A stretch of DNA of 64,000 nt from NCBI RefSeq assembly GCF_004307425.1, contig NZ_SEWZ01000002.1, positions 190,935 through 254,934 of the forward strand, in the 5' to 3' direction. Positions 65-31,087 of the stretch are shown here, piece by piece. The stretch comes from Aquirufa antheringensis. Its GTDB lineage: Bacteria; Bacteroidota; Bacteroidia; Cytophagales; Spirosomataceae. Under the pieces are notes generated by a model. It saw nothing but the letters and a program-made list of their open reading frames with translations. It made no database searches and was not told the DNA's origin. The position numbers and the translations under genes are program-made. Every line of letters begins with the position of its first letter. Position 1 is the stretch's first letter.

Positions 65-167
65 CGTCGCTTCGCGACAGTCGTCCTACGGACTAAGTCA
101 GGACTGCGTCAGTCACTGCTTCGCAGCTTAGTCGACTCCGTCTTAGTCATCGCTTCGCGATTTAGTC
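65..167. repeat. Mini-hairpin array 1 (TTAGTC-linked)
   Basis: A run of tiny inverted repeats, each with a 3-5 bp stem and a 3-nt loop, joined by TTAGTC. Readable units include TCGC-TTC-GCGA, GTCC-TAC-GGAC, CTGC-TTC-GCAG, GAC-TCC-GTC and a second TCGC-TTC-GCGA. Stem sequences differ from unit to unit while loop type and linker stay constant. An open frame at 41-253 (+) is only read-through of this array and is not called as a gene. The four-helix-bundle gene on the minus strand ends at the array's right edge. The bases before the array (1-64) show no gene I can support. Confidence 0.8.
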
Positions 168-534
168 AATTCAATCGATGGCCGCTTTTATCAAGAATTC
201 GAATGAAACCTTTAATCAGTAGAGAAATTTCAACCAGATCTTTTTGCAATTGATTAGCCTGTTCATGTGTTATATAGTTTAACTGGCAAGCAATATAAAG
301 CATCGATTTTACCTCACTAGATGACCCTAATGCAATAAACAAAAAGCGTCGAAAATCCGCATCTGAACCTCTTTCAAAACCCTCCGCTATATTATTAGAA
401 ATGGAGATTGCAGCCCGCTGGATTTGGTTTTTAAATCCGTAATCTACATTTAACTGAAGTACTTTATAAATCTCAATTGCGACGATTTGAGACTTTTTCC
501 AAGCCTCAATTTCTTCAAAATGGTATATTCTCAT
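166..534 (-). CDS. Four helix bundle protein (S23/IVP-like)
   Basis: A 122-residue protein of the four-helix-bundle family (TIGR02436-like), first known from proteins encoded in 23S rRNA intervening sequences and related to Avd-type accessory proteins. The family hallmark is seen in the middle: NNIAEGFERGS followed by FRRFLFIALGSSSEV, with amphipathic helices on both sides. Length is typical (about 115-125). The ATG at 534 is the only sensible start. The molecular role of most stand-alone members is unknown; nucleic-acid binding has been suggested. The gene lies between two mini-hairpin arrays, and its stop codon touches the left one. No reverse transcriptase or rRNA gene is nearby, so neither a DGR nor an rRNA insertion explains it. 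Confidence 0.85.
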   Translation of the reverse strand: MRIYHFEEIEAWKKSQIVAIEIYKVLQLNVDYGFKNQIQRAAISISNNIAEGFERGSDADFRRFLFIALGSSSEVKSMLYIACQLNYITHEQANQLQKDLVEISLLIKGFIRILDKSGHRLN

Positions 535-587
535 AATTCATCAAGATTACACGATTTTTAATTATTATTGTAACAGCAACTTGATAA

Positions 588-716
588 ACGACTAAATCGC
601 GCAGCGATGACCAAACGACGCAGTCGTGACTAAATCGCGCAGCGATGACCAAACGACGCAGTCGTGACTAAATCGCGCAGCGATGACCCTTTGACTAAGC
701 TGCGAAGCAGCGACTA
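588..716. repeat. Mini-hairpin array 2, 38-bp tandem period
   Basis: The same hairpin family as at 65-167, seen in the opposite orientation (linker reads GACTAA). Two alternating units, TCGC-GCA-GCGA and ACGAC-GCA-GTCGT, form a 38-bp unit that starts at 590, 628 and 666, giving about 2.6 copies. A further unit, GCTGC-GAA-GCAGC, follows. The array ends directly at the start codon of pxpA, so the upstream control region of that gene is made of repeat. The whole 38-bp unit repeats without variable spacers, so this is not a CRISPR. Confidence 0.85.
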
Positions 717-719
717 AAT

Positions 720-1385
720 ATGACTCTAAACTGCGACCTCGGCGAAGGCATTGGAAATGATGCCGCACTCATGCCCTACATCAACGAAGCAAATATTGCC
801 TGCGGATTTCATGCCGGGGATGCGTTTACGATGCGCGAAACGGTAGCATTATGTATTCGCCACGGAGTGAAAATGGGGGCGCATCCGTCCTATTTAGATC
901 GAGAGAATTTTGGGCGAAAAGAAATCGAACTGAGCCCAGAGGAGATCTATTTGCTGGTGAAAAAGCAGATAGAGACGCTGAATCAAATCGTAAAAACTGC
1001 AGGTGGAACGCTAAATCACGTGAAGCCACACGGTGCTTTGTATAATACTTCGGCTAAAAATCCTGATGTCGCAAAGGCTATTGCGAAAGCGGTAAAGGAT
1101 GTGAGTGGAGACTTAATCTTATTCGGACTGAAAGGCAGCCAGTCGATCGAGGTCGCACAGGCAATGGGTCTACAAACAGCAGAAGAGGCTTTTGCCGATC
1201 GTCGCTATGAAAGTGATGGTTCCTTAACTCCACGCAGCCAACCAGGGGCTTGCTTTACAGAAATACAAGATGTGCTAGATCAGGTGGAAAAAATAAAGGC
1301 CGACACCTGGTGTATCCACGGTGACGGCCCACATGCGTTAGAGTTCGCGAAAGCACTGAAAGCGAAGCGCTATACAAAGTCTTAA
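720..1385 (+). CDS. pxpA: 5-oxoprolinase subunit PxpA (LamB/YcsF family)
   Basis: A 221-residue LamB/YcsF protein, a cytoplasmic TIM-barrel-like subunit of the ATP-dependent 5-oxoprolinase that opens pyroglutamate to glutamate together with PxpB and PxpC. Family motifs are seen: LNCDLGEG at residues 3-10, ANIACGFHAGD near 25-35, GAHPSYLDRENFGR near 52-65, and VKPHGALYN near 100-108. It is slightly shorter than the usual 240-255. The ATG abuts the hairpin array and leaves a nearly complete N-terminus. No pxpB or pxpC genes are next to it, unlike in many genomes, so the partners must lie elsewhere or be absent. It overlaps the convergent TonB receptor gene by 4 bp. Confidence 0.9.
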   Translation: MTLNCDLGEGIGNDAALMPYINEANIACGFHAGDAFTMRETVALCIRHGVKMGAHPSYLDRENFGRKEIELSPEEIYLLVKKQIETLNQIVKTAGGTLNHVKPHGALYNTSAKNPDVAKAIAKAVKDVSGDLILFGLKGSQSIEVAQAMGLQTAEEAFADRRYESDGSLTPRSQPGACFTEIQDVLDQVEKIKADTWCIHGDGPHALEFAKALKAKRYTKS

Positions 1386-3862
1386 AACTCCACAATAAAT
1401 CCAATCGTAGGTGTTACTTGCGCCCGATCATTTAAGAACTGGATCGGAATGGCGTTGCTCCCGTCTTTCGCAATAGGTAAACCATTCGTCGTCGCAAAGG
1501 CTGAATTATCCTCTAAACGTTTGAAAGTATACGTGGGAATTCCTGGATTCACGGCGATGTACCAGTTGGTCACGTCTAAGAACAAATCGATGGTCGTTTT
1601 CTTCAAATTGTATTTCTTGTCGATACGGACGTCACTCGAATGGAAGTTCGGTAGACGTTGTGTATTGAGACGCGAGTAATCAAAGGTTCCTTGGCCTAAA
1701 GTCAGGTAACTTGACTTAGATGTGGTTTCATCATAAGGTGTGTAGGGTGCGCCTCCTTGGTAACGAAAACGAAGACCTAACTCCCAGTTGCGCGGGAATT
1801 TATAGCCCCATGTCACACTTAACAAGTGTTGGTTATCCCAGCTGGAGGCGATTAAATTGCCATCAAAACCACTGTACATACTGCGGTAATAGGTGTAAGA
1901 CAAGATTCCGAACGATTTGTCGGTCAATTTCTTTTGGGCGAATAACTCAAAACCATAGGCACGACCTTTACCCGTAGTCGTGACATCTTCGTTACCTAGA
2001 ATGTTGAAGTCTCCCCCTAAATTTGCTAAAGATATCCCCTTAGCGTTTGAAATAGGCACATTCGCATATTCCTTCACGAAGGCTTCCGCCGTGAAACGCA
2101 AAGATTCATCGTGTAAGTATTCTAATCCAGTTACATAGTGTTCACTTTGCTGGTATTTCGCGTCTTGATTCACCAGGCTAGGCTGAAGAAGCGCAAAGCT
2201 AGAACTCATCAAGTAATAAGGGGGTCTGGTAGCATAACCTAAAACCGTATACGGCGCTAATTTAAAGTAGCGACCCACGGAAGCATTTGCGGTCCATTTT
2301 TCAGATAATACATAGCTAGCTGAAACACGAGGAGAGATCGTTTCCAAAGGGTCCATTCCCGTCGTTGTGAAGCTATTCATATCGGTACGAAGGCCAGCGC
2401 TTAGACCTAATTTGGCGTCAAAAAAGGTCTTCGAAACTTGTGCAAACGCACCGTATTTCCAGAGCGAATTCAACGGGCTTGTATATGAAATAGTGGTCGT
2501 AGGATAAGCTAAACGCACCGCAGGACTCGCCGTCGTATTATTCAAAACTTGGTAGGTACTATTCGCATATTCCACGAATTGCGCAGAAAGGCCATAGTTG
2601 ATCTTCCAGCCATTGGTATTTTTGTTCACATCCACGCGCAACTTATTTTCCGTTTCGCGTGAGGCATAATCAAAGTTTAATTGCGACGGATCTTTCTTTA
2701 AATTGTCCTCATAACGCAAGAAATTATTGTCAAACACATTTCTTGAAAGAGCGACATTCACATAGCCATTATCCAATAACTTCTTCAACGACATCCCCAG
2801 CGTATAATTCCATTGATTGATCAGCGGATTTGAATTATAAATATATAATTTCTCTGGCGTGGCTTTTTTTAGTGTCCCAAAAGAGAAGTCATCAATCGCC
2901 CCCAATCCCATCAACGACAAGGTGGTTGTTGAATTAATTTGCTTCGTGATTTTAAACTGTCCGTCCCAGAAATTTGGGCGAATGGGAATGTCTAAAGCTT
3001 GAAAAAGGAACTGCAAATACGAGCGGCGAACAGAGGCTAAAAACGTGGTTTTACCTGTTTTAGAAAGTGGCCCCTCTGTCGTTAAAGCGAATTCAGTCGC
3101 ACTTAGACGCGCATTTCCTTGGAATTTATTGGGGTTCCCCGTGCGTTGTTTGAACTGAAAAACAGAACTTAGGGTGTTGTCATAACGCGCATCAAAGGCC
3201 GAAGAACTCAACTTCACATCCTCAATGAAAGACACGTTTAGCATTCCCTGTGGGCCTCCACTGCTGCCTTGGGTTTGGAAGTGATTTAATACGGGAATTT
3301 CAATACCGTCTAGGTAATAGACGTTTTCGTTCGGGCCTCCGCCACGGATGATGATATCATTTCTGAAGCCTCCGCCTTGTGGGCCTCCGCCTACGCCGGG
3401 TAGGGTTTGAATTACTTTGCTGACGTCGAAGTTTCCGCCTGGGTTACTTTTGATTTCCTCTGCGGTTAAGCGCTGAACGCTGAGCGGGGATTCGAGGGTT
3501 GCGGCTTTAGCGGTGCGGCGGTTTTGGGTAACTACGACCTCCGTTAATTGTTGGTTTGATGGGAGTAATTCTATGTTCAAGAAATTTTCATTACCCGCAT
3601 TGACAATCACGTTAAAAGCGGTGTATTTCTCATAGCCTACTGCGGAAAAGGAAATATTATAGGTTTTTAATGCCAAACCTGTTAAACGAAACGTTCCCTT
3701 ATCATCTGCATTTACGCCTTTTGTTGAACCATCGAGCGATACAGAAACTCCAGCAATCGGTTTTTGGGTTAATTGATCAACGATTTTTCCAGAGATGCGT
3801 CCGTTGTTTTGGGCCAAAACCGAAAAAGAAAACAAAAACAATAAAAGGACATTTTTCATCAT
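1382..3862 (-). CDS. TonB-dependent receptor with carboxypeptidase-regulatory-like domain
   Basis: An 826-residue outer-membrane receptor. Residues 1-17 form a signal peptide ending LAQ. Residues about 21-105 form a CarboxypepD_reg-like beta-sandwich (GKIVDQLTQKPIAGVSVSL) typical of Bacteroidota receptors. A plug domain follows (about 115-235, with IIIRGGGPNENVYYLDGIEI), then a 22-strand-type barrel ending in an aromatic residue (IGFIVEF). Such proteins import large substrates using TonB energy. No SusD partner lies next to it, so it is not a standard SusCD pair, and the substrate cannot be told. Two adjacent ATGs (3862 and 3859) are possible starts. Confidence 0.92.
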   Translation of the reverse strand: MMKNVLLLFLFSFSVLAQNNGRISGKIVDQLTQKPIAGVSVSLDGSTKGVNADDKGTFRLTGLALKTYNISFSAVGYEKYTAFNVIVNAGNENFLNIELLPSNQQLTEVVVTQNRRTAKAATLESPLSVQRLTAEEIKSNPGGNFDVSKVIQTLPGVGGGPQGGGFRNDIIIRGGGPNENVYYLDGIEIPVLNHFQTQGSSGGPQGMLNVSFIEDVKLSSSAFDARYDNTLSSVFQFKQRTGNPNKFQGNARLSATEFALTTEGPLSKTGKTTFLASVRRSYLQFLFQALDIPIRPNFWDGQFKITKQINSTTTLSLMGLGAIDDFSFGTLKKATPEKLYIYNSNPLINQWNYTLGMSLKKLLDNGYVNVALSRNVFDNNFLRYEDNLKKDPSQLNFDYASRETENKLRVDVNKNTNGWKINYGLSAQFVEYANSTYQVLNNTTASPAVRLAYPTTTISYTSPLNSLWKYGAFAQVSKTFFDAKLGLSAGLRTDMNSFTTTGMDPLETISPRVSASYVLSEKWTANASVGRYFKLAPYTVLGYATRPPYYLMSSSFALLQPSLVNQDAKYQQSEHYVTGLEYLHDESLRFTAEAFVKEYANVPISNAKGISLANLGGDFNILGNEDVTTTGKGRAYGFELFAQKKLTDKSFGILSYTYYRSMYSGFDGNLIASSWDNQHLLSVTWGYKFPRNWELGLRFRYQGGAPYTPYDETTSKSSYLTLGQGTFDYSRLNTQRLPNFHSSDVRIDKKYNLKKTTIDLFLDVTNWYIAVNPGIPTYTFKRLEDNSAFATTNGLPIAKDGSNAIPIQFLNDRAQVTPTIGFIVEF

Positions 3863-3879
3863 AGGCAGGTAACCACTAA

Positions 3880-5214
3880 CTAGCTATAAATGTTTCGCTG
3901 CAAGAACGCATTTTTCCATTTACCTTGTGGATCCATTTTCTTCGCTAGGGCTAAGAAATCCTTGAATTTAGGGTAACGACTTTGCACTTCGGCAGCCGGC
4001 ATGGTGAAGATTTTACCCCAATGCGGCATCGCGCCCAATGGGCTTAATTTTGCCTCCACCTGTGGAATTACCTTCATCACTTTCTCCACTTCTTGCTTCC
4101 ACGTGAAGTGGATCGCGATCACCTCTTTTTTATATGCTGGACTTAACCACAACTCATCCGCCGCTATGCTGCGCACTTCTGTCACAAACAAAACGGGTGA
4201 AATGATCTCGTGCAAGCTTTCCACTGCCATTATAGCCTTGTATGCATTTTCGCGGGGTACAAAAAACTCAGTTTGTAATTCAGCTCCATTACTCGGCGTA
4301 AAACCCATTTTAAAGTGAGGTAAACGCTCGTACCAGGGCCCTGGAACGCCCATTTGATCCGTGCAATTCACTGGGGAGTTGACCTTAATGGGGTGTAAAT
4401 TTGTCGTCGCTGGGGTAGCACCGTAGAAATTCGTTTTAGGTACCACATCCCCTACTTTCTTCTTCACCCACACCTGGTTAATATTTTTATCGAGCCAGTG
4501 GGTGAACATACTCACACTATAGCCAGCAGCATAAATTTCGTCAAAATGATGCTCTAAAGCGCTCATAGGTAAATTTTCGTATACTTCTTGCGTCACTTGG
4601 AAAGTAGGCTGAATGGCTAGGGCTAGTTTTGTCACAATTCCTAGAGCTCCTATATTGACCACTGCCCCATAAAACTCCGGATTAGTTTGGTCAAATTGAA
4701 CCAACGTTCCATCCGACTTCATTAATTCAATTGCTCGAACAGCCGAAGAAAGATTCCCCGTCTTACCACCAGAGCCGTGAGTCGCTGTAGCACAAGCTCC
4801 TGCCACTGAAATATGAGGCAATGACGCTAAATTATGAATGGCATACCCCCGCTCATCAATGTATAATCCAAGTGTGCCGTATTTGATTCCTCCTTCCACC
4901 CAAACCCACATTTTATCCTTATCTATCGACAATACCTTGTTTAGCTTTGACGTTGAAATCAAGGTTTCTGTGGTGTCAGCTACGGTATTGAACGAGTGCT
5001 GTGATCCAAGCGCTTTTCCCCCTTTAATTTTCAATACTTTGGCTCTCAATTCTTCTATTGTGGTCGGATAAACGACATTTTTAGCGGAATAACGTAGGTT
5101 ACCAGCCCAGTTTGTGAGGCCTGTATCGGGAGTTTTAAATGAGCTACTAAAGGCTAAAATAGTGGACCCTAGCGCTAATAGGCTAGATTTCTGCAAGAAT
5201 TCTTGACGATTCAT
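3880..5214 (-). CDS. FAD-dependent alditol/sugar-lactone oxidase-like protein, exported
   Basis: An FAD-linked oxidase of the alditol oxidase/D-arabinono-1,4-lactone oxidase type. I take the ATG at 5214 (MNRQEFLQKSSLLALG), which gives 444 residues with a Tat/Sec-like leader; the frame opens further to 5250. The PP-loop FAD domain shows GSQHSFN, whose histidine (residue 73 from this start) matches the covalent flavin site of alditol oxidases. GACATATHGSGG follows. The C-terminal ALO domain carries PHWGK near the end. The exact substrate (alditol, aldonolactone or similar) cannot be read from sequence. The stop is one base from the start region of no other gene, and the T9SS cargo gene lies directly upstream on the same strand, so co-transcription is likely. 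Confidence 0.82.
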   Translation of the reverse strand: MNRQEFLQKSSLLALGSTILAFSSSFKTPDTGLTNWAGNLRYSAKNVVYPTTIEELRAKVLKIKGGKALGSQHSFNTVADTTETLISTSKLNKVLSIDKDKMWVWVEGGIKYGTLGLYIDERGYAIHNLASLPHISVAGACATATHGSGGKTGNLSSAVRAIELMKSDGTLVQFDQTNPEFYGAVVNIGALGIVTKLALAIQPTFQVTQEVYENLPMSALEHHFDEIYAAGYSVSMFTHWLDKNINQVWVKKKVGDVVPKTNFYGATPATTNLHPIKVNSPVNCTDQMGVPGPWYERLPHFKMGFTPSNGAELQTEFFVPRENAYKAIMAVESLHEIISPVLFVTEVRSIAADELWLSPAYKKEVIAIHFTWKQEVEKVMKVIPQVEAKLSPLGAMPHWGKIFTMPAAEVQSRYPKFKDFLALAKKMDPQGKWKNAFLQRNIYS

Positions 5215-5251
5215 CGAGTTTGATAGGTTTAGTTTTTTGAATTTAGCCAAA

Positions 5252-7180
5252 TTAAGGCAAAATCAAAACCGTCTGCGTCACGAAACCTTTGGCAGACTCA
5301 TATTTCAATAAATAATTTCCTGCCCCTGGCAACGGCGCAGGAATGCGCAAGGTTTCCCCTGCATCGACCGAAATCGCACCGCCTAAAACGCGTCCAGAAA
5401 TATCAAACCACTGTAAAGTTCCTGCATTTTTCACTCGAATATTAATGAGCGATGTGGAAGGGTTAGGCCACACATACAATTCCTCCGAGGGAACGATAAT
5501 GTCCGAGGTGTTTTGGAATAATTGTACTCCGCCAGAGGCTAATCCTACGACGATATCCACTTTACCATCGCGATTGAAATCGGCGGTGGTGATTTGCGCA
5601 TTTTGGCCTACCTGAAAAGGCAAGCGTTGCACTTCCAATCCCAAACCAGATACATATAGATAACCAGAAGAGTCCACGGTGATTCGCTCTGCGTTGCCGT
5701 CACCGGTGATGTCCGCATAGGCTATACCTCGGAAAGAGGTTTCTTGACGCTGATAAGGTTTGGCCAAATCCGACCAATCATACACCCGTGTGCCCCCTAA
5801 ATAATCCAAAACCACGAGTTCCAGCGATCCATCCTGGTTGATGTCATAAAGACGGGGCGTTTCGCGGAGACTCACCACATTCAAAGCCTTTTCTTCCCCC
5901 AGCTGACCCGCTGAATAGGCCCGATAATACACCGACGAACCCTTTACATAATACAGCATCAGGCGACCATTCACTACTTGTAATTGTACCGAGGAAGCTC
6001 CGGCAAGCGTTAAAAAATCCCTCGATTTAAACGACAGTACCCCATTCACATTTTCATAAAAAGTGACACTAGCGCTTCCAATCAACAAATCCAGATCGCC
6101 ATCATTATCCGCATCATAGAACACAGGCGAGGCATTATCTCCCACGTCGATCATTTCTTCTTGTAAAAAGGCCTTGGTTTTCAACACCAAAGCGCCATTT
6201 TCAGACCGATAGTAAGACACCGTTTCCAAAGCCGGATTCAAATCTGGCAAATGAGACGACGCGATTAAATCCAGAATGCCATCGCCATCTAAATCGATAG
6301 GTGATCCGCTGGCAAGAGATGGAACGCTATGAGGTGCCCCGGTAGGAAAATTGTAATCGGCCGAACGGAACTTAGGTTTTGCACGAGTCCCCTCGTTTTT
6401 CATCCATAGAAAGCTAGAACAGTTCACATGCCCTATGATCAGATCATAAATGCCATTTTTATCCGGATCCCAAAGGGCTAACGTACTTCCGGCATGTTGA
6501 ACCGCCGCTGTAGACTGAGTACTTAAAACAGATTCCGGAACCAGCCCGAACGTGATATCTTGGCAATCATTCAGATAGAAATTACCCCAATTCAAGGATT
6601 TGGTGACGTATTTCAAGTCTCCCGTATTCTCATAATACGTGATAAAATGCCCCGCAGATTCAAAGGCTAAAATATCCAAATCTCCATCCCCATCGATATC
6701 CGCAATGGCAGGAATATCCGTCGCACTGACGTAGATATTGATGAGGCCATTGAGGCCGGTTGATTTCAAAGTACCGAGTGATTTAGGGAAGTTATTACCT
6801 AGGTTCGGATATACCTGTATCCCACCCGGAGTGGAGGTAAACAGATCTTTGTCCCCATCTCCATCGTAATCCAACAAATTCATCCAGTTTTCGATGAGTG
6901 GAAAACGTTTTTGATAGCCGGGGGAATACGTAAAACCACCGGAGGAATTCCGTAAAAAAGTCTTCAGGTGTTGCGCACTGCGATCGAAAACCACGAGATC
7001 TTCCCGCGCGTCTCCATCGAGATCGAGGAGGAAAAACTGTACCGAATTCATTCCGCCAGCCCACGGATTCTTTAATCCGGTAACAGGGAGATTGGTGATT
7101 TGGTCAAAGGAGATTTGTTGCGCTTTCAAAGAAAGCGATAAAAGACACAGCAAGACGATCAGCCTTTTTCTCATCACCAT
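5252..7180 (-). CDS. FG-GAP/VCBS repeat protein with T9SS sorting domain
   Basis: A 642-residue secreted beta-propeller protein. A signal peptide is at the N-terminus (RLIVLLCLLSLSLKAQ). Repeated calcium-binding-like loops of FG-GAP/VCBS type run through the body: DLDGDAREDLVVFD, DYDGDGDKDLF, DIDGDGDLDIL, DLDGDGILDLI, DADNDGDLDLL and DFNRDGKVDIV. The last 75 residues form a type A T9SS sorting domain (VWPNPSTSLINI, then FDISGRVL, ending LLKYESAKGFVTQTVLILP). It is therefore probably exported through the type IX system and attached to the surface or released. Start is either 7180 or the ATG at 7174. Function beyond a surface propeller is unknown. Confidence 0.85.
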   Translation of the reverse strand: MVMRKRLIVLLCLLSLSLKAQQISFDQITNLPVTGLKNPWAGGMNSVQFFLLDLDGDAREDLVVFDRSAQHLKTFLRNSSGGFTYSPGYQKRFPLIENWMNLLDYDGDGDKDLFTSTPGGIQVYPNLGNNFPKSLGTLKSTGLNGLINIYVSATDIPAIADIDGDGDLDILAFESAGHFITYYENTGDLKYVTKSLNWGNFYLNDCQDITFGLVPESVLSTQSTAAVQHAGSTLALWDPDKNGIYDLIIGHVNCSSFLWMKNEGTRAKPKFRSADYNFPTGAPHSVPSLASGSPIDLDGDGILDLIASSHLPDLNPALETVSYYRSENGALVLKTKAFLQEEMIDVGDNASPVFYDADNDGDLDLLIGSASVTFYENVNGVLSFKSRDFLTLAGASSVQLQVVNGRLMLYYVKGSSVYYRAYSAGQLGEEKALNVVSLRETPRLYDINQDGSLELVVLDYLGGTRVYDWSDLAKPYQRQETSFRGIAYADITGDGNAERITVDSSGYLYVSGLGLEVQRLPFQVGQNAQITTADFNRDGKVDIVVGLASGGVQLFQNTSDIIVPSEELYVWPNPSTSLINIRVKNAGTLQWFDISGRVLGGAISVDAGETLRIPAPLPGAGNYLLKYESAKGFVTQTVLILP

Positions 7181-7238
7181 AAAGGTATTCAGATTTTGAA
7201 AATAAAATGGTAATTTACAGGGATTAACCTGTCAAACT

Positions 7239-8768: not shown

Positions 8769-8770
8769 TT

Positions 8771-12535: not shown

Positions 12536-12536
12536 C

Positions 12537-22722: not shown

Positions 22723-22737
22723 CAGACGCTTGAATTG

Positions 22738-22823: not shown

Positions 22824-22837
22824 GTCCTGGTAAAACT

Positions 22838-22858: not shown

Positions 22859-22866
22859 TCGTTTTG

Positions 22867-22939
22867 AGCGAAAGACGGGGTTCGAACCCGCGACCTCGAC
22901 CTTGGCAAGGTCGCGCTCTACCAGCTGAGCTACTTTCGC
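22867..22939 (-). tRNA. tRNA-Gly (GCC)
   Basis: A 73-nt tRNA on the minus strand. The acceptor GCGAAAG pairs with CTTTCGC. The D arm reads GCTCAGCTGGTAGAGC, the anticodon loop TTGCCAA gives anticodon GCC, and the T arm contains GGTTCGAACCC. CCA is not encoded. It is upstream of tRNA-Leu in the same direction. Confidence 0.96.
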
Positions 22940-23037
22940 GTTTTGTGGATGCAAAAATACGGCCTCCTATTGAATTATGCAAGTCGAAATCAAATTTTAG
23001 TAAAAATATTCTCTAAATTTATACTTTAGAAAAAAAT

Positions 23038-23508
23038 ATGAGCATCAACAAACTCGACCAAACTGATCACAAATTACTGGAAATTCTTCAGCAAAATGCG
23101 AAGATTACAAACGCCCAATTATCGAAAGAGATTGGTCTTTCCCCGGCTCCTACTTTGGAACGTGTAAAGAAATTAGAAACTTTAGGGGTTATCCAAAGCT
23201 ATCACGCTCAGGTGGATAGAGAAAAAGTAGGCTTAGGAGTGAGCACGTTTGTGACGGTAACTTTGACGGGTCACAAGAAGCAAGTGACAGAGTCATTCGT
23301 GAAGCAAATCAACCAAATTCCAGAGGTAATCGAGTGCCATCACGTGACAGGTTCTGGCGATTTTATGTTGAAAATTATTTCGAAAGATATTTCAACTTAT
23401 CAGAAATTAATGCTCGAAAAAATCAATGAAATTGAAGAAGTGGCTGCCACTTCCACCATGGTGATCTTGTCTTCATTCAAAGAAAGTAAGGTATTACCTA
23501 TTCCGTGA
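23038..23508 (+). CDS. Lrp/AsnC family transcriptional regulator
   Basis: A 156-residue DNA-binding protein. Residues 5-60 form the AsnC-type winged helix-turn-helix (LDQTDHKLLEILQQNAKITNA, then SPAPTLERVKKLE). Residues about 68-150 form the RAM ligand-binding/oligomer domain (VEKVI-type pattern, here HHVTGSGDFMLKI). Members respond to amino acids and form octamers. The gene stands alone between the tRNAs and tgt, so its targets cannot be told from context. The ATG at 23038 is supported by the normal N-terminal length. Confidence 0.92.
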   Translation: MSINKLDQTDHKLLEILQQNAKITNAQLSKEIGLSPAPTLERVKKLETLGVIQSYHAQVDREKVGLGVSTFVTVTLTGHKKQVTESFVKQINQIPEVIECHHVTGSGDFMLKIISKDISTYQKLMLEKINEIEEVAATSTMVILSSFKESKVLPIP

Positions 23509-23514
23509 TCAAAC

Positions 23515-23533
23515 GTTTCGCGTATTGCGAAAC
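23515..23533. terminator. Hairpin between convergent lrp-type gene and tgt
   Basis: GTTTCGC-GTATT-GCGAAAC is a perfect 7-bp stem with a 5-nt loop in the 26-bp gap between two convergent genes. It lacks a clear T-run, so termination is likely but not certain. Confidence 0.4.
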
Positions 23534-23534
23534 C

Positions 23535-24668
23535 TTACAATCGGTGCATAAATTGCGGGATCATGCGGTTTTTCCAAGCCGTAAAAGTTCCCGCTTGAAT
23601 TTCCTTGCGTGCCTCGCCCACCATCCACAGATAGAAGCGCAAGTTACACACACTCGCAATCATGGCGCCTAACATTTCCTCACATCTAACCAAGTGTCGT
23701 AGGTAAGACTTCGTGTATTGACCGTGTACCTCATTCACGAAATGTGGATCGATGACCGAAAAGTCGGACTCCCATTTCTTATTCTTGATATTGATAATTC
23801 CCTGCGTCGTAAAAATCATCCCGTTGCGGGCATTTCTCGTAGGCATTACACAATCGAACATATCAATTCCGAGCGCAATTCCTTCCAAAATATTGGCCGG
23901 AGTTCCTACGCCCATTAAGTAGCGCGGTTTGTCTTTGGGCAAAATATCCGTCACCTCATCCGCCATCGCGTACATATCTTCGACTGGCTCGCCCACGGAT
24001 AAACCACCGATGGCGTTACCGAAAGCCCCTTTGGACGCAATATACTCCGCCGAGACCTTTCGCAAATCAGAGTAAACACTACCCTGAACAATGGGGAATA
24101 AAGTCTGATTATAGCCGTATTTGGGATCTGTTTCGTCAAAACGCTTGATGCAACGATCAAGCCAACGGTGAGTCATGTCCATCGATTTGCGCGCGTATTC
24201 GTAGGTACATGGGTACGGCGTGCATTCGTCGAAAGCCATCATAATATCCGCCCCGATCGTGCGCTGAATATCCATCACCCCTTCCGGCGTGAAATAGTGA
24301 ATACTACCGTCTATATGTGATTTGAATTTGACCCCTTCTTCCTGAATTTTTCGTCCTGTTCCTGCCAAAGAATACACTTGATATCCTCCCGAGTCCGTCA
24401 AAATAGGCCCCTGCCAGCCATTGAATTTATGCAATCCCCCTGCCTTTTCGATGACCTCTAAACCCGGACGCAAGTACAAATGGTAGGTATTCCCAAGAAT
24501 AATTTGGGCCTTAATGGGATCAGTTAATTCTGAAATATGAACGCCTTTAACGGTCCCTGCAGTGCCTACAGGCATAAAAATGGGCGTTTGAATCGTCCCG
24601 TGATCTGTCGTTATTTCACCTGCGCGCGCTTTCGAGCTAGGATCCGTGTGGCTTATTGAGAATTTCAT
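23535..24668 (-). CDS. tgt: Queuine tRNA-ribosyltransferase (TGT)
   Basis: About 377 residues from the ATG at 24668 (MKFSISHTDPSSKARAGEI). It exchanges guanine-34 for preQ1 in tRNAs with GUN anticodons. Motifs seen: GNTYHLYLRPG, LTDSGGYQVYSL (catalytic-site region), GGLSVGEP, YLMGVGTP and DMFDCVMPTRNARNG. In the C-terminal zinc region the usual cluster CxCxxC is replaced (FVNEVHGQYTKSYLRHL), and the later zinc histidine is a cysteine (SVCNLRF), so the structural zinc site appears missing. This may be a lineage trait. A long hairpin array lies upstream. Confidence 0.95.
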   Translation of the reverse strand: MKFSISHTDPSSKARAGEITTDHGTIQTPIFMPVGTAGTVKGVHISELTDPIKAQIILGNTYHLYLRPGLEVIEKAGGLHKFNGWQGPILTDSGGYQVYSLAGTGRKIQEEGVKFKSHIDGSIHYFTPEGVMDIQRTIGADIMMAFDECTPYPCTYEYARKSMDMTHRWLDRCIKRFDETDPKYGYNQTLFPIVQGSVYSDLRKVSAEYIASKGAFGNAIGGLSVGEPVEDMYAMADEVTDILPKDKPRYLMGVGTPANILEGIALGIDMFDCVMPTRNARNGMIFTTQGIINIKNKKWESDFSVIDPHFVNEVHGQYTKSYLRHLVRCEEMLGAMIASVCNLRFYLWMVGEARKEIQAGTFTAWKNRMIPQFMHRL

Positions 24669-24705
24669 AAGACAAAGGTACAAAAGAATTTTCTTGTGAG
24701 CAGCT

Positions 24706-25062
24706 GAAGTCGCTGCTGCGCAGCTTAGTCAACAGGTCGCCACTTCGTGGCTTAGTCGCCTGCGGCTTGGTCGCTGCTGCGCAGCTTAGTCAACAGGTCG
24801 CCACTTCGTGGCTTAGTCGCCTGCGGCTTAGTCGCTGCTGCGCAGCTTTGTCAAAAAACATTTAACGAATCGTTGCGAAGCAACAACCAACTTTGTGCTT
24901 TATTCTTTGTGCTTTGAACACAGCAGCTTAGTCACGACTACGTCGTTTAGTCGCGACGTTGTCGCTTAGTCGTCCTGCGGACTTAGTCAAAAACATTTCA
25001 CGAATCGTTGCGCAGCAACATCCAACTTTATACTTTGTGCTTTATACTTTGTGCTTTAAATT
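24706..25062. repeat. Mini-hairpin array 3 with 61-bp tandem repeat and composite tail
   Basis: Fills the 400-bp gap between tgt and the ThuA fusion gene. A 61-bp unit starts at 24710, 24771 and 24832 (about 2.3 copies). It contains GCTGC-TGC-GCAGC, GCCAC-TTC-GTGGC and GCC-TGC-GGC stems, each followed by TTAGTC or a close variant. Later units are CGAC-TAC-GTCG, GCGAC-GTT-GTCGC and GTCC-TGC-GGAC. Two tails of the form AAACATTTnACGAATC, then GTTGC-G(A/C)A-GCAAC, then an ACTTTGTGCTTTAT-type stretch, follow at about 24855 and 24990. No gene was seen in this stretch. Confidence 0.85.
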
Positions 25063-25069
25063 ATCTGCT

Positions 25070-28000
25070 TTAATTAACTTTCATAATGCCATTCATAATC
25101 CTCCAGTGCCCTGGGAACGTACACAAGAATGGATAATTGCCTGGAACACTTGGTGCTTTGAAGACCACTTTTACGCGGCCATCTGATTCCACTAATGGAG
25201 TGTAGGCTAACACTTCTGGCATGGCTGGGATGTAGTTTTTCGCTGCACCATCAGCAGCTGTGATCATCTTGTCCGCGGCTAAGCCGATTTTTTCTTGGCT
25301 ACCTAAAGCGCCTAACACCCAGTTGTGTTGCATCGCATCGACGTTTTCGAAGATCAACTCAACCGTCGCACCTGCAGGGACTGTGAATTCCGCTGGGCTG
25401 TATTTCATTGCTTCTTTGATCGTCATAATCGTGCGTTTCACGACCACACCTTTTACTTCAGCAGTTGGAATTTCTACTTTCCAAAGACCCGCTAAACGCT
25501 CATACGCGTCCACATCCTGCGGACGTAATTGCTTGCCTAAGCCTTTTAAGAAGTCCGTATTTTCAGTTGATAAATCTGCCACACGTTTCGCATTCCAAGT
25601 AGCTGAAGCGCCTTTCAAAGCCGCGCCCATGGTAGGACTAGCTGTTTGCTTGATCGAGCGTAATAAAGCGACGATATCATTGGCTGAATCATCTGAGGTC
25701 ATGCCGCGGAACGATTTCTCTACGATGTACGAGCCTAAATCTGCTGGTAAAGAAACCACAATGGGTTGTCTGAAGATATTATTGTTGCGATTCGATTCGC
25801 CTAATACGGCTTTCGTATCTAAGGCAATTTCCATCACGTAATTGCCTGCTTCGTCTGCCGTCCAGCCTAAGTTTCCTGTCCAAGGACCGTTGTTATTTTT
25901 CACAACAGAAACCGTTTCGCCTGGAGCTGCTCCATCTGTGAACGTGTAGGATTCCAAATCGGTACGACGACCCATACCTTCGATTTTGACGGTTAACGGA
26001 AGTGGGGTGCCTTTTGGCAAGGCCTTATCGCCTCTGTTTTTCACGCGGATCACAAAACTAGCGCCTTCACGTAAACGGAAGTTTCCGCCTTTGATTTGAA
26101 CTTCTTCCACGACTAGGTCTAGGCCTGATTCGGTCCCTGCTGTCGTTGGATTTTTCGCTTCTTTCGCTAATTTCTCTGCTACCACCGCGCTTGATTGAGC
26201 GCCTTGTTTCGCGATGAATGCGGCACGACGTGCAGGACCACCGGCCATTACATAGGCCGCTAAAGCGTCTGGAATCCAACGATCCGTTGTTTTAGCAGAG
26301 ACCGCGATTTTACGCGCCATCGCCGCTTCTACCGCTGGGGAAGACGGAGATTCGATTAAAGCTAAAATGGAATGTAATACGACTAAGGAGTCTTTGTCGT
26401 TCAGCATTTTTTGGTCCAAAATCAATTTCGCCGAAGCCGCCGTACGAGGCAATACCTGCACCGCTTGCTTGCGCACCGCTGCAGATGAATGCTTCATCGC
26501 ACGAGCTAGAGCGTCCATTGGTAAAACACCTAAACCTTCTAACGTTCTAAGCGCGTGGATGGCACCTGGAGCGAGACCGATTTCATCGGTTTTGGCAGAA
26601 CCTAAAAGCGCTACCAAAGCCGGAACCACGTCTTTATTTCCGCGTTCCACTAATAAACGCTGCGCCTGTAAACGCCAAAACAAGTTCGAATGACTCAAAG
26701 CCGCCACACATTCCGCCGGCGTTTTCAAGGAAACTGGCGTGTATTCTGGTGCTTTATTATACCCTACGCGGTAAATACGACCGTGGGTGAAATCACGTAA
26801 ATCCGTGTCGTAGGCATTACCTCCACCGTTTTTAAATCCTTGCGGAACCGGGTTGTGCTGAATGATGTACGAATACCAGTCCGCCACCCAAACAGCTCCA
26901 TCCGGACCCACCTGCGCAAACACTGGAGATACCCATTCGTCAGCACCGGCTAGGAAGTTGAATGCTTCTTTGTCGTTAAAATCAGAGCCCGTCGGCACCT
27001 GGCGATTCTGGTGAATCACGTGACCCGTTGGTTCTGAAACGAAAGCGATTTGGTTCCAATATTCTTTCGGGAACGAGCGTGCAGAATAGAAATTATGTCC
27101 AGCTGCTGCTGTAAATCCGCCAAAAACATCGACCTGACGCACTTTCTTCGTGATCGTCCGCATGTCCTTGTGCGTATCCGTATTTTTGGAACCATTCAAG
27201 GTCATAAGCGCATGCCAAATATTGCGGTGCGGAATGGCCATATACCAGCCATGCGCGTTATTTGCCGTCGAACCGAACACATCACCTGCCTCATTGAAGT
27301 CGAAGCCCCAGGTATTGTTCGAAGTCGTCGTCATGTGCTCCATCTTCGAGCCATCTGGCTTGAAGCGGAAGAATGCCTGCGCAAATTGTAGCGAATCCGC
27401 TCCCACTTTGCCCTTATAACCGGAATAACCCACACAACCCCAGATCCAGTTATCGAATCCATAATGCAAATTCGACGGTCCAGCGTGTGTATCCCCTGTT
27501 CCAAAACCGGTGAATAAGATTTTCTTTTCATCGGCTACATCATCGCCATTCGTGTCTTTCAACAAGATCATGTGAGGCGCCTGAGAAATAATCAAGCCTC
27601 CATTTGCGAACACCATCCCCGTAGGAATGCTTAGGCCTTCCGCCCATTTCGTGAATTTATCAGCCTTCCCATCTTTGTTCGTGTCTTCGCACAATAAGAT
27701 ATAATCGCTTCCACCCGTTTCTTTGCGTTCGTTAGGATAGTCTTTCGTGATCAACACATACAAACGACCTCGCTCATCCCAAGCCATCGCAATCGGGTGC
27801 ATCACGTTCGGTTCAGAAGCGAATACTTGCAAATTAAAGTCCACCGGAACCTGAATAAACTTCACTGATTCCTCTGGGCTTAAAGGTAATTGCTGTAGTT
27901 GAGCGCCTTCGCGTTTCTCGTAGTTAGGCAATTTCGCTTCGCGGTATTTCAAAACCGGGATGTTCAATGCCGTTAATAAGGCTCTTTTCTCTGCTCCTAC

Positions 28001-28675
28001 AGCATGCAAAATTCCTTGTGTCACTAGATCCTGAAATCCTTCCGTTTCCCAAGTACGCTCGTCGTGACCATAAGCTGTGTAAAACACATTTCCTTTTCCG
28101 TAGGTACGCGTCCAAGTATAAGGTTCGGTGGTGGCACCTGGCTTATCTTTGGCCTGCTCAGGTCCTAGAATTCTAGATTGCCAAATCTGGTTATCCGGCT
28201 GCAATTGGCTATGCAAATACGTCTCATCGACCGTCTTGATTTTCACGAAGGTGTTCGCCTCGTTTTTCACGCGAATCGAATCCATCCCATGACGCCAAAA
28301 CTGACCGCCCACCATCTTCACAAATTCCTTCGAATTCCGGAAGTTGAACGACGCACAATGAATCGCCACTAAACCGTGACCCGAAGCCACATAATTCAAG
28401 AGCGCTTTCTCCTGCGGTGCTGCGATCGAATCGTGGTTCGCATAGATCACCAAGGCATCGAATTTATTCAAATAAGCCTCATTCAAATCCTTCAAGGATT
28501 CCGTGTAGGTGATATTCATCCCCTTGATTCCCACTGCGGATTGCAATGCAGGATACCTGTCAAAGGGCTTGTGGTGGCCTTTATCGCCTAAAAACAATAA
28601 TTCGAGGCGTCTGCCAGGAGCAGCCGAAACCGAAAATTGAAACAAGAGTGCCGCAGCAAATAAGAGAAAACGCAT
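25070..28675 (-). CDS. ThuA / PVC-type dehydrogenase / CARDB / cupredoxin fusion protein
   Basis: A 1201-residue exported protein (signal RFLLFAAALLFQFSVSA). Residues about 25-225 are a ThuA-like glutamine-amidotransferase-fold domain. About 280-640 are the beta-propeller of PVC-type membrane-bound dehydrogenases (MAWDERGRLYVL, HAGPSNLHYGFDNWIWG, GPDGAVWVADWYSYIIQHN). About 660-850 are HEAT-like helices, and about 855-970 a CARDB-like sandwich. About 1080-1201 are a type 1 copper domain with ligand candidates in MQHNW and FLCTFPGHWRIM. The CxxCH heme site common in this family is absent. It probably oxidises a sugar or polyol in the periplasm, passing electrons to copper (inference). It is the last gene of a run with the next two oxidoreductase/isomerase genes. 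Confidence 0.85.
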   Translation of the reverse strand: MRFLLFAAALLFQFSVSAAPGRRLELLFLGDKGHHKPFDRYPALQSAVGIKGMNITYTESLKDLNEAYLNKFDALVIYANHDSIAAPQEKALLNYVASGHGLVAIHCASFNFRNSKEFVKMVGGQFWRHGMDSIRVKNEANTFVKIKTVDETYLHSQLQPDNQIWQSRILGPEQAKDKPGATTEPYTWTRTYGKGNVFYTAYGHDERTWETEGFQDLVTQGILHAVGAEKRALLTALNIPVLKYREAKLPNYEKREGAQLQQLPLSPEESVKFIQVPVDFNLQVFASEPNVMHPIAMAWDERGRLYVLITKDYPNERKETGGSDYILLCEDTNKDGKADKFTKWAEGLSIPTGMVFANGGLIISQAPHMILLKDTNGDDVADEKKILFTGFGTGDTHAGPSNLHYGFDNWIWGCVGYSGYKGKVGADSLQFAQAFFRFKPDGSKMEHMTTTSNNTWGFDFNEAGDVFGSTANNAHGWYMAIPHRNIWHALMTLNGSKNTDTHKDMRTITKKVRQVDVFGGFTAAAGHNFYSARSFPKEYWNQIAFVSEPTGHVIHQNRQVPTGSDFNDKEAFNFLAGADEWVSPVFAQVGPDGAVWVADWYSYIIQHNPVPQGFKNGGGNAYDTDLRDFTHGRIYRVGYNKAPEYTPVSLKTPAECVAALSHSNLFWRLQAQRLLVERGNKDVVPALVALLGSAKTDEIGLAPGAIHALRTLEGLGVLPMDALARAMKHSSAAVRKQAVQVLPRTAASAKLILDQKMLNDKDSLVVLHSILALIESPSSPAVEAAMARKIAVSAKTTDRWIPDALAAYVMAGGPARRAAFIAKQGAQSSAVVAEKLAKEAKNPTTAGTESGLDLVVEEVQIKGGNFRLREGASFVIRVKNRGDKALPKGTPLPLTVKIEGMGRRTDLESYTFTDGAAPGETVSVVKNNNGPWTGNLGWTADEAGNYVMEIALDTKAVLGESNRNNNIFRQPIVVSLPADLGSYIVEKSFRGMTSDDSANDIVALLRSIKQTASPTMGAALKGASATWNAKRVADLSTENTDFLKGLGKQLRPQDVDAYERLAGLWKVEIPTAEVKGVVVKRTIMTIKEAMKYSPAEFTVPAGATVELIFENVDAMQHNWVLGALGSQEKIGLAADKMITAADGAAKNYIPAMPEVLAYTPLVESDGRVKVVFKAPSVPGNYPFLCTFPGHWRIMNGIMKVN

Positions 28676-28678
28676 GGC

Positions 28679-29791
28679 TTAGAATTTAGGAATTTCAATG
28701 ATTTTTCCGCCTTGAAGAGCAGATTCGTGAGCTAATATACCTACCGAAGTCCAGTTAGCAGACTGCGGTGCATTCGGGAATGGATCGCGATCTGCGGCCA
28801 AAGCCTGCAAAAACTCGTTCACCAAATGGGGGTGTGATCCACCATGTCCGCCCCCTTGGGTAAACGAAAGGTGGGTATTATCCTCCTCGTCGTACACCCC
28901 TTTCGTAGTGAAACGTTGAATTTCTTCGGGTAAATAATGGGCAAAATCAGGCGTAGGCACTTTCGATGGAATCTCTGGCTCCGGTTTTTTCGCCGTATGC
29001 ACCACTAATTCTTCTCCCTCAATTAAAGGCCATTCTACCGATTTCTTCGACCCATAGACCTCAAAACTTTCGCGGTATTGACGCGCCACATCGAACAGCG
29101 AACGGTATACCATCGCGCTCAAATCCGAATCACGGAACTTAATGTGCGCTGATTCCACCGCAAATGGCGAGTTATAATGCTGAATTAATTCTTCGCGAAT
29201 CGTACCCGATCCGAAGCAAGAAACATATTCCGCTTCTAAACGTAACAATCCAGCCACCGGACCTACGCAGTGTGTCGCATAGTGCATCGGAGGCAAGCCT
29301 GGCCAATAATCCGGCCATCCGTCCATATCTTGTTGGTGCGATGCTTTCAAGAATTGAATCTTGCCTAGCTCACCCTTTTCGTATAATTCTTTGATGTACA
29401 AAAACTCGCGCGCATACACCACGGTCTCCATCATCATATATTTCTTACCCATACGATTGCTCGCCTCCACGATCGCTTTGCACTCCTCAACTGTCGTCGC
29501 CATAGGCACCGTACAAGCCACGTGTTTCCCTGCATTTAGCGCTTTTAGCGTCTGTTCCGCGTGCAAGTGAATAGGAGAATTGATGTGAACGACATCTACA
29601 TTCGGGTCTTGGATTAGCTTCTCAAAATCCGTGTAGCGCGTCTCGATCCCATAGGCATCCCCGATGGAGTTGAGTTTATCTTCATTTCTTTGGCAAATCG
29701 CATACATGTTCGCCAACGGATGCTTCAAATAAATAGGAATAAATTCTGCGCCGAAACCTAGTCCGACAATCGCAACGTTATATTTTTTCAT
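28679..29791 (-). CDS. Gfo/Idh/MocA family oxidoreductase
   Basis: A 370-residue cytoplasmic NAD(P)-dependent sugar oxidoreductase. The Rossmann start is VAIVGLGFGAEFIP (residues 5-18). The conserved HINSPIHLHAEQTLKAL and the GKHVACTVPMATTVEE block (the usual EKP is CTVP here) are followed by the C-terminal alpha/beta domain. The EKP lysine position reads T/V-P, so the catalytic lysine is not in its usual place. It is 3 bp upstream of the ThuA fusion gene, which strongly suggests co-transcription. The 120 bp before its start are repeats. The substrate is unknown; a sugar-modifying role with its neighbours is inferred. Confidence 0.88.
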   Translation of the reverse strand: MKKYNVAIVGLGFGAEFIPIYLKHPLANMYAICQRNEDKLNSIGDAYGIETRYTDFEKLIQDPNVDVVHINSPIHLHAEQTLKALNAGKHVACTVPMATTVEECKAIVEASNRMGKKYMMMETVVYAREFLYIKELYEKGELGKIQFLKASHQQDMDGWPDYWPGLPPMHYATHCVGPVAGLLRLEAEYVSCFGSGTIREELIQHYNSPFAVESAHIKFRDSDLSAMVYRSLFDVARQYRESFEVYGSKKSVEWPLIEGEELVVHTAKKPEPEIPSKVPTPDFAHYLPEEIQRFTTKGVYDEEDNTHLSFTQGGGHGGSHPHLVNEFLQALAADRDPFPNAPQSANWTSVGILAHESALQGGKIIEIPKF

Positions 29792-29810
29792 AGTTTAAAA
29801 GATTTCAACA

Positions 29811-29925
29811 TTCATTTACCATTCACCACTTACCATTTACCATTCGTTTACCATTCACCATTCATTTACCATTCACCACTTACCATTTATCATTCATTTA
29901 CCATTCACCACTTACCATTTATCAT
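29811..29925. repeat. Tandem CATTTACCATTCACC-type repeat
   Basis: Three copies of a unit of about 27 bp built from TTTACCATTCACCACTTACC start near 29813, 29863 and 29895, with shorter variants between. The repeat forms the whole spacer between two co-directional genes. The last copy encodes the end (residues MINGKW and stop TGA) of the sugar isomerase-like protein on the minus strand. Confidence 0.85.
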
Positions 29926-30732
29926 TTTAAAGGATTTTTCCACAAGCTCTCGCTCTGAATTAAACATTTTTCGCCAAATATGAGCCGCCGGCAATTTCTC
30001 GCTAAAGGCCTCCACCACGAGCCAGCCGGAATAATTTACGTCCTTAATCGCCTGCAAAACAGACGGCCAGTTCACCTGACCTTCTCCCAAAATCCCCCGC
30101 GTACTCTCCGACAACTGAATGTGCGGTGTCCGCTTCGCAATCCGTCGAATCGCATCTGCCGTACTCACTTCCTCGATATTCGCGTGGAACGTGTCAAACA
30201 TAATCTCTACATAGGGGTGATTAATCTGCTCGACTAAGGCATATAATTCATCTGCACACGAGACCAAATAACTCTCGAAACGGTTCAAATATTCTAAACA
30301 AAGGGTAATATTCTTCGTGGCCGCGTGATCTGCCACTTCACGGATGCCGGCGATGGACCAGTCGATTTCTTGCTGGGTGGCTTTGGCCCCTGTAAAAACA
30401 CCGAGCGCTGAATGAAAAGGCCCAGACAAATACGGCGCCCCTAAAAAAGCCGCCACATCTACCGCTCCTTTCAAATACGCAATACCCGCCGCTCTAACCG
30501 CTGGATCTGGCGAAATCAAATTCTCCGCAGGCCCTGCAATCGCACAGGCAAAAGGTTGTAAGCCCAGTCGATCGACCTCCTTTTTCCAAGCAGACCAATG
30601 CGCTAAATCAACATTAAATACCGGAATTTCAACGCCTTGATAACCCACCTCTTGAATAAAGGCAAGCTCTGATAATACAGAATCATTCATATCTGGCCCG
30701 TAAACGAGCAGATTCATGGCGATTGGGTTCAT
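29905..30732 (-). CDS. Sugar phosphate isomerase/epimerase-like TIM barrel protein
   Basis: About 275 residues from the ATG at 30732; another in-frame ATG at 30744 lies inside a hairpin-array linker (ATGACTAAA). It is an AP-endonuclease-2/xylose-isomerase-like TIM barrel. Metal-ligand type motifs seen: CLEYLNRFE (Glu), VEIMFDTFHANIEE (Asp, His), HIQLSESTRG and LVVEAFSE (Glu). The closest named relatives are D-tagatose/psicose 3-epimerases and similar enzymes. It is probably first in an operon with the Gfo/Idh/MocA and ThuA fusion genes, which together suggest oxidation/epimerisation of a sugar. The last six residues come from an intergenic-type repeat. Confidence 0.87.
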   Translation of the reverse strand: MNPIAMNLLVYGPDMNDSVLSELAFIQEVGYQGVEIPVFNVDLAHWSAWKKEVDRLGLQPFACAIAGPAENLISPDPAVRAAGIAYLKGAVDVAAFLGAPYLSGPFHSALGVFTGAKATQQEIDWSIAGIREVADHAATKNITLCLEYLNRFESYLVSCADELYALVEQINHPYVEIMFDTFHANIEEVSTADAIRRIAKRTPHIQLSESTRGILGEGQVNWPSVLQAIKDVNYSGWLVVEAFSEKLPAAHIWRKMFNSERELVEKSFKMINGKW

Positions 30733-30739
30733 AGGTTTA

Positions 30740-30893
30740 GTCATTAGTCGCTGCTTCGCAGCTTAGTCAAAAAGTCGACTTCGTCTTAGTCATCGCTGCG
30801 CGATTTAGTCATTTCGCGACGAAGTCGCGAGGTCATCGCTGCGCGATTTAGTCGCTGCTTCGCAGCTTAGTCGTGACTACGTCACTTAGTCAA
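30740..30893. repeat. Mini-hairpin array 4
   Basis: Units GCTGC-TTC-GCAGC, GAC-TTC-GTC, TCGC-TGC-GCGA (twice), GTGAC-TAC-GTCAC and a longer CGCGAC/GTCGCG pair, linked by TTAGTC. It lies upstream of the isomerase-like gene and overlaps its possible first ATG. With array 5 it fills most of the 320-bp gap to the EamA gene. The 65 bases between the arrays (30894-30959) show nothing I can name. Confidence 0.85.
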
Positions 30894-30959
30894 AACACTT
30901 TAACAGCTAAATATAAAAGAAATAATTGAAGATATCTACCCGGAAAGAACAACATAGAC

Positions 30960-31087
30960 TGAGCCGCAGGCGACTAAACGACACAGTCGTGACTAAATCG
31001 CGCAGCGATGACCAAGCTGCGAAGCAGCGACTAAGGCGAAGCCGACTAAATCGCGCAGCGATGACTTAGTCCGCAGGACGTCGCGAC
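30960..31087. repeat. Mini-hairpin array 5
   Basis: The same family in the opposite orientation (linker GACTAA). Units: GCC-GCA-GGC, CGAC-ACA-GTCG, TCGC-GCA-GCGA (twice), GCTGC-GAA-GCAGC, GGC-GAA-GCC and GTCC-GCA-GGAC. The right end encodes the last residues (RRPAD) and the TAA stop of the EamA transporter gene on the minus strand. Confidence 0.85.

Follow-up and report, generated by a model that had tools for sequence, protein, structure and literature searches.

Arrays of mini-hairpins with a near-constant TTAGTC linker in Aquirufa antheringensis and one clade of its relatives

Hairpin arrays in the 64-kb window

The stretch of the Aquirufa antheringensis genome analysed here (64,000 nucleotides of contig NZ_SEWZ01000002.1, hereafter the window) contains six arrays of very small hairpins built from units with the consensus GTC-[R..C]-TNC-[G..Y]-TTRGTC: a stem of 3-5 bp with an outer purine-pyrimidine pair, and a 3-nt loop closed by C-G, repeated with periods of 19, 17 or 15 nt. 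The TNC loop of a unit reads GNA on the GACTAA strand, with the closing pair C-G (C-GNA-G). The original prediction had placed such arrays in five intervals (65-167, 588-716, 24706-25062, 30740-30893 and 30960-31087); all are present, and the five intervals amount to six arrays. A script that requires the linker delimits the units at 83-167 (+), 590-711 (-), 24712-24852 (+), 24934-24988 (+), 30750-30891 (+) and 30972-31079 (-). The strict form of the unit (GTC-N4C-TNC-GN4-TTAGTC, with arm pairing no condition) occurs 18 times in the window and 0 times altogether in 100 block shuffles of it. A comparison of positions 1-32000 with Rfam at the gathering score returned two tRNAs only, the arrays matching no family. 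The arrays, and the gene between two of them, are:

65..167, + strand: array 1; linker units GTCC-TAC, ACTGC-TTC (one mismatch), GAC-TCC and ATCGC-TTC
166..534, - strand: 23S_rRNA_IVP gene (PF05635, four-helix bundle), with arrays 1 and 2 converging on it from either side; context
588..716, - strand: array 2; ATCGC and ACGAC alternate as an exact 38-bp repeat (2.6 copies), plus GCTGC
24706..24856, + strand: array 3a; GCTGC, GCCAC and GCC in 61-bp repeats (2.4 copies, 96% matches)
24925..24988, + strand: array 3b; ACGAC-TAC, GCGAC-GTT and GTCC-TGC
30737..30893, + strand: array 4; GCTGC, GAC, ATCGC, ATCGC, GCTGC and GTGAC
30960..31087, - strand: array 5; GTCC, ATCGC, GGC, GCTGC, ATCGC and ACGAC

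Array 1 opens with a linkerless hairpin (TCGC-TTC-GCGA), has further units just beyond the window edge (G000:C2:190722-190777, G000 being the source genome) and converges with array 2 across the 23S_rRNA_IVP gene. The interval 24706-25062 also contains heptamer repeats and linkerless hairpins. Array 4 has its GTC end where the gene at 29905-30744 (-) is called to start; array 5 converges with array 4 and runs into the EamA gene at its 3' end, with the TAA stop of that gene inside a TAAGTC linker.

Stem pairing and distribution of the family

Pairing is maintained while stems change. Of 367 units picked by linker, loop and closing pair, with the four remaining pairs free of any pairing condition, 338 are fully paired at those four pairs, and 97.8% of the cells there are complementary; when each of the 46 distinct arm combinations is counted once, the paired share is 85.9%, and none of 1000 shuffles exceeds 52.7%. 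In the window, the 18 units (10 distinct, picked from found hairpins) pair in 98% of cells, compared with a shuffle mean of 73% and at most 54% in slid structures. Thus, the covariation first noticed in a few arrays exceeds chance and disfavours simple tandem copying, and the claim that stems always pair is correct as near-perfect rather than absolute. There are 22 distinct fully paired 5-bp stems, 21 of which are linked by single-pair steps; a few dominate (ATCGC accounts for 120 of the 338 fully paired units), and the middle base of the loop varies within common stems, GCCAC (16 units) having T only.

Hairpins with perfect 5-bp stems between GTC and TTRGTC number 479 with a 3-nt loop, whereas loops of 2, 4, 5 and 6 nt occur 6, 6, 1 and 1 times. 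The closing pair is C-G in 476 of the 479, and the 5' outermost stem base is a purine in every one. Their loops are TNC in 341, TNT in 66 and of other types in 72, and the linker is TTAGTC in 337 of the 371 units that fit T[AT]NGTC (TTGGTC 23, TAAGTC 8, TTTGTC 3), so that the loop type and linker described as constant are instead the predominant forms. Perfect TNC-loop units have stems of 5 bp (238), 4 bp (42) or 3 bp (86), and none of 6 bp. Eight loci outside the genus, unpaired and attributed to chance (L044, L054, L055, L061, L073, L090, L097 and L107), were left out of the stem-length, loop and mismatch, heptamer and arm-pairing counts, and the viral chance loci L128-L130 were also left out of all but the first of these; with the eight kept, 221 of 251 strict units are fully paired, 19 have one mismatch and 11 have two to four (8 of these 11 from those loci). 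Single mismatches read on the TTAGTC strand are A.C in 18 cases and G.T in 7 (p = 0.043, a weak test on related units), a bias that leans weakly towards the GACTAA strand as the one that may fold.

The strict pattern occurs 60 times in the source genome, and the same pattern read backwards 0 times. A covariance model was trained only on units with complete pairing (37 distinct ones). Scoring at most 150 candidates per genome, it gave at least 104 matches in the source genome (150 of 1351 candidates scored) and, at E <= 0.1, matches in 10 of 38 genomes of the genus and none in the other 28. In the strict-pattern search of 59 genomes (the source, 36 of the genus and 22 of the order), 10 genomes of the genus, hereafter the carriers, have 10-66 units each, and the single match at the level of the order (G045) is unpaired. 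The tandem pattern was found in 54 stretches among the contigs of 84,980 species, 47 of them from metagenome-assembled genomes labelled Cytophagaceae or Spirosoma fluviale; a wide distribution was rejected, as the seven stretches from other lineages are unpaired, with 2-4 mismatches in 5 pairs, i.e. chance. In a TGT tree of 30 rows the 9 carriers form one side of a branch (support 99/98), as do the 8 carriers among the 30 rows of an EamA tree (support 100/100). The family is confined to one clade. Neither of the outcomes set beforehand as refuting it (units only here; no covariation above chance) occurred, because the source genome has 60 strict units, the stems covary beyond chance and 10 of 38 genomes match. 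Spread by phages was also considered and rejected: three IMG/VR records match one tandem pattern, none containing a paired unit. The carrier G007 is a single contig of 2.5 Mb, and 62 of its 66 strict units fall in the part from 0.16 to 1.48 Mb.

Position and turnover of the arrays

The arrays are oriented with respect to genes. In stretches around arrays in G007 and the source genome, the GTC end is closer to a gene edge than the TTAGTC end in 30/34 and 24/27 arrays, respectively (54/61 overall), or in 28/34 and 24/27 if only open reading frames (ORFs) of at least 100 aa are considered; among arrays without an opposite partner the rule holds for 12/18 (p = 0.24) and 16/19 (p = 0.004), the p values here and below being optimistic because units and sites are related by descent. 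Genomes were mostly drafts, and ORFs were called mechanically. The edge within 120 bp on the GTC side is a gene end for 38 arrays and a gene start for 16. The stop codon adjoining the array is TAG in 24 of the 38, compared with 30 of 165 other genes of the same stretches, and the first linker contains the stop codon in 20 of the 38 (TAG|TC in 14, TAA or TGA|GTC in 6). In all 28 cases of neighbouring arrays with opposite orientations, some of which are orthologous, the two arrays converge. The genes on either side form a convergent pair at 23 of 45 array regions versus 12 of 59 others (p of 0.026 and 0.030 in the two genomes). Outside the bodies of ORFs of at least 150 aa lie 192 of 195 5-bp units; at L198 (4046-4091), two units antisense within a called 1469-aa ORF are the sole fully paired non-intergenic exceptions in the stretches. 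Terminator-like sites are not enriched after arrays (10/38, versus 44/177 at other genes). Copying of an array into its converging partner was rejected, since unit orders compared by eye are not mirrored, and a check for replication-strand bias by GC skew, made on 19 stretches of G007, gave no information either way.

The same spacers contain tandem heptamers. Intergenic tandem segments in the stretches of the source genome and G007 and in the window have period 7 in 40 cases, periods of 4-6 and 8-10 in none, and periods of 11 and 12 in one each; period-7 repeats were seen at 29804-29927 and 61781-61943 of the window and in the spacers of L184-L214. In the left half of the spacer 35 heptamer segments are purine-rich and 6 pyrimidine-rich, and in the right half 12 and 35 (p = 1.3e-8; 88 of 120 segments, the 32 with 40-60% purine being left out), a polarity that resembles that of the hairpin arrays. 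TAGTC-type heptamers lie in or beside 9 of 81 arrays, mostly with a purine next as in hairpin units, and this hints that heptamers with a TAGTC core may be the origin of the units.

Orthologous sites are empty or filled by other repeats in close species, and therefore occupation by the hairpin family changes between them. Downstream of PdhA, five carriers (the source genome, G007, G008, G013 and G021) have a TAG stop directly abutting an array, the junction reading TAG|GC in the source genome and TAG|TC in the other four, whereas carriers G002, G023 and G030 have TAA and a terminator-like hairpin, the array being absent; PdhA is 97-99% identical among these carriers, and its stop is TAA in 21 of 22 non-carriers read and TAG in one (G001). 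Among the PdhA 3' ends compared (L283-L290), carriers with an array have a terminator-like hairpin past it whose sequence is not that of the hairpin in carriers without one, so that the whole spacer from stop codon to T run seems to have been replaced. Downstream of RecF, the arrays of G007, G013 and G021 begin at TAG|TC, while in the source genome, G002, G023 and G030 the TAG leads into different sequence that consists in part of heptamer repeats (the site in G008 was unreadable and left out). Downstream of EamA, arrays are found in the source genome, G007 and G021, and in G013 at the far side of the spacer; the site is without an array in G002, G008, G015 and G023, and other species have heptamers or other palindromes there. 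Units at orthologous sites are replaced or altered as wholes: near EamA, ACGAC-TGT-GTCGT in the source genome corresponds to GCGAC-GGA-GTCGC in G007, a paired change of the outer pair together with a new loop. The palindromes downstream of EamA in sister species (L264, L266 and L267) are GTAGAGACGCGATACTTCGCGTCT, AACCCCAGACTTTAGTCTGGGG and GGCAAACCTTGGAGGATTGCC; the GTAG-bearing one among them looks like a GTAG-tagged REP.

A driver gene was not found; the families sought in the carriers were only PF01797 and PF05635. The Y1/RAYT-type transposase family PF01797 has matches (E <= 0.001) in 0 of 10 carriers, which are 73-99.6% complete, and in 12 of 28 non-carriers; the original statement that the window lacks a RAYT transposase can therefore be extended to the whole genome and to all carriers, several of them incomplete. 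The palindrome GTAGAGACGC was tried as a positive control for Y1 but proved useless, being present in 6 of 38 genomes, two of which have a Y1 match. The IVP gene (PF05635, 166-534), considered as cargo or driver, is found in 10/10 carriers but also in 18/28 non-carriers and is thus non-specific and an improbable candidate. At L056 and L105 an IVP gene lies between converging arrays, apparently at the same site; the centres of 422-443 bp in L003, L056 and L105 resemble the IVP interval between arrays 1 and 2.

Known repeats and possible origin

The literature searched, with subscription journals largely outside the search, gave no description of such hairpin arrays, which share traits with several known systems. 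REP elements (GTAG- or CGTC-tagged) with their RAYT transposases (PMC3733652) and REPINs (PMC3116915) are, as there described, likewise short intergenic multi-copy palindromes, with small loops in many families, complementary stem changes, and dimers or groups of fixed relative orientation. The present units differ in that the GTAG/CGTC tag is absent and the palindrome lies between GTC, before which tandem units have TTA or TTG, and TTRGTC; in that their stems are of 3-5 bp, none of 6 bp, whereas those given in PMC3733652 are 6-13 bp in GTAG and 8-9 bp in CGTC families, with one shorter-stem exception; and in that the arrays run head to tail and no Y1 gene was found in the 10 carriers. Intergenic heptamer repeats such as TAACTGA (PMC4679880) and GGGAATC/GGGGAYT (PMC4692102) are reported to be tandem and to have a preferred orientation to genes, and TAACTGA contains a stop codon in every frame and can extend into the ends of genes; the hairpin units, in contrast, have periods of 15, 17 or 19 and variable paired stems, while the account in PMC4679880 gives no predicted folding for TAACTGA and places it mostly ahead of start codons in the genome studied. 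After the hairpin comes TTRGTC instead of the direct T run of an intrinsic terminator.

Placozoan organelles contain small inverted repeats, e.g. GGVBCC-N3-GGVBCC (PMC7813641), and Volvox organelles short palindromes interpreted as selfish (PMC2670323); as reported there, these too have short stems and loops of 3 nt (placozoan) or 3-5 nt, and are spread in noncoding DNA. The present family differs by its location on a bacterial chromosome, its near-constant linker, its head-to-tail units, their convergent order and their overlap with stop codons. Its 60 strict units in the source genome, and the 192 of 195 5-bp units outside ORF bodies, correspond to the organelle-type trait of many small-loop palindromes across noncoding DNA, and the family would appear to work most like these proliferating palindromes. 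Finally, the C-GNA-G DNA mini-hairpins described as superstable (PMC4686876) have a loop and closing pair identical to those of the GACTAA strand of a TNC-loop unit; that motif is a chemical one and not a genomic family, whereas folding of the units is a prediction from sequence, and many of their stems have fewer consecutive G-C pairs than the motif asks (at least two).

We tentatively interpret the family, with confidence somewhat short of even, as a clade-specific, self-propagating mini-hairpin minisatellite with fast turnover. Units would be copied during replication, while the DNA is single-stranded, by slippage and template switching: hairpins would fold, and the identical linkers would serve as short homologies by which units are duplicated and swapped as modules. 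New sites would be seeded where TAG(TC) is offered, for example by TAG stop codons, and arrays would survive where harmless, mainly in spacers beside gene ends. Quasipalindrome correction, in which fold-back of the nascent strand copies a change in one arm into the other, would keep the stems paired; PMC8794818 deals with the making and maintenance of hairpins by template switching, and PMC7202029 with quasipalindrome mutation in Escherichia coli. The family may descend from the TAGTC-core heptamer repeats of the same genomes. What is inherited, by a proposal that we likewise hold at slightly less than an even chance, would be the C-TNC-G loop (C-GNA-G on the other strand) and the TTAGTC linker, with 1-3 inner stem pairs free.

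This interpretation is suggested by the single-pair steps that join 21 of 22 stems while the middle base of the loop varies; by the nearly fixed 3-nt loop, C-G closing pair and outer purine, together with the superstability of C-GNA-G; by the exact 38-bp and 96% 61-bp tandem copies; by the exchange of whole units and the differing site occupancy of close species; and by the absence of Y1 in carriers (0/10), the restriction to one clade and the TAGTC heptamers at 9 of 81 arrays. Several observations weigh against it. Covariation is equally expected under selection, fitting it and hairpin-templated copying alike. Some template switches should invert loops, and inverted loops are rare among the 479 units (GAA 12, GGA 12, GCA and GTA 0). 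By ViennaRNA with DNA parameters the two strands of a unit differ little in energy; the orientation rule has no explanation in the minisatellite model; TAGTC-type heptamer blocks are only about threefold enriched over mononucleotide shuffles (28 in 375,940 real bases versus 10 in 448,550 shuffled); and the mechanism is inferred from comparison of sequences, without a directly observed event.

The gene-end position would be explained by selection in the host, where the arrays may have a function. In 3' untranslated regions they would form tandem RNA hairpins with UNC loops, joined by UUAGUC linkers, which might bind a protein, block 3'-5' decay or halt readthrough ribosomes. Each linker contains TAG, and the 19-nt period places TAG in all three frames; gene ends outnumber gene starts on the GTC side (38 versus 16), the stop lies inside the first linker in 20 of 38 cases, convergent gene pairs are over-represented (23/45 versus 12/59), and PdhA has TAG at 5/5 occupied sites and TAA at three empty carrier sites. 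We nevertheless consider such an element unlikely: about 30% of arrays near a gene edge (16/54) lie at a gene start, orthologous genes of close species manage without an array, terminator-like sites follow arrays as often as elsewhere (10/38 versus 44/177), and on the sense strand single mismatches are more often A.C than G.T (18:7, p = 0.043), which is, weakly, the opposite of what an RNA role predicts. The fixed loop and flank with a free stem also resemble structure recognition, as by a recombinase, whether of a single-strand transposition system or of another kind, that would insert a non-autonomous element beside TTAG or TAG, like REP/REPIN or IS200/IS605 ends, its driver lost or unrecognised. 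Arrays beginning at TAG|TC in 14 of 38 stop-side cases, TAG at RecF sites with and without an array, and the varying occupancy would suit it; however, PF01797 is absent from all ten carriers and present in 12 of 28 non-carriers (no other recombinase family was searched for), the empty PdhA sites have TAA rather than TAG, the whole spacer differs at RecF with no clean insertion, and the three IMG/VR matches lack a paired unit, making mobility of this kind quite improbable.

If a few palindromic units had simply been duplicated in tandem, and the apparent covariation were an accident of few founders, this could account for the 38- and 61-bp repeats in some arrays and for the dominance of a few stems such as ATCGC (120/338), but hardly for 22 fully paired 5-bp stems, plus stems of 3 and 4 bp, around a near-constant loop and linker, or for 46 arm combinations that are 85.9% paired where shuffles reach 52.7% at most; we regard it as very improbable. 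Of the suggestion that the hairpins are a mobile or selected family, then, the genome-wide family stands; as to mobility, occupancy differs between close species, yet no driver gene was found, and selection does not follow, because template switching can also make and keep paired stems. The minisatellite interpretation could extend, doubtfully, to a new sort of DNA replicator: a mini-hairpin of 15-19 bp with the GNA loop and linker as its identity, which would multiply because it folds, with hairpin-templated stems and arrays seeded at TAG stops, and which together with 7-bp repeats would fill spacers as polar converging arms.

Compensatory changes in stems are usually attributed to RNA structure being under selection. 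Here ten close species share a young family that changes fast and has dozens of paired stems in each genome, a natural experiment that could distinguish such selection from hairpin-templated mutation. It is relevant as well to the spread of bacterial repeats without a recognised transposase, to the commonness of heptamer repeats in bacterial spacers, and to the evolution of gene ends, as at PdhA, where the stop is TAG with an array and TAA without.

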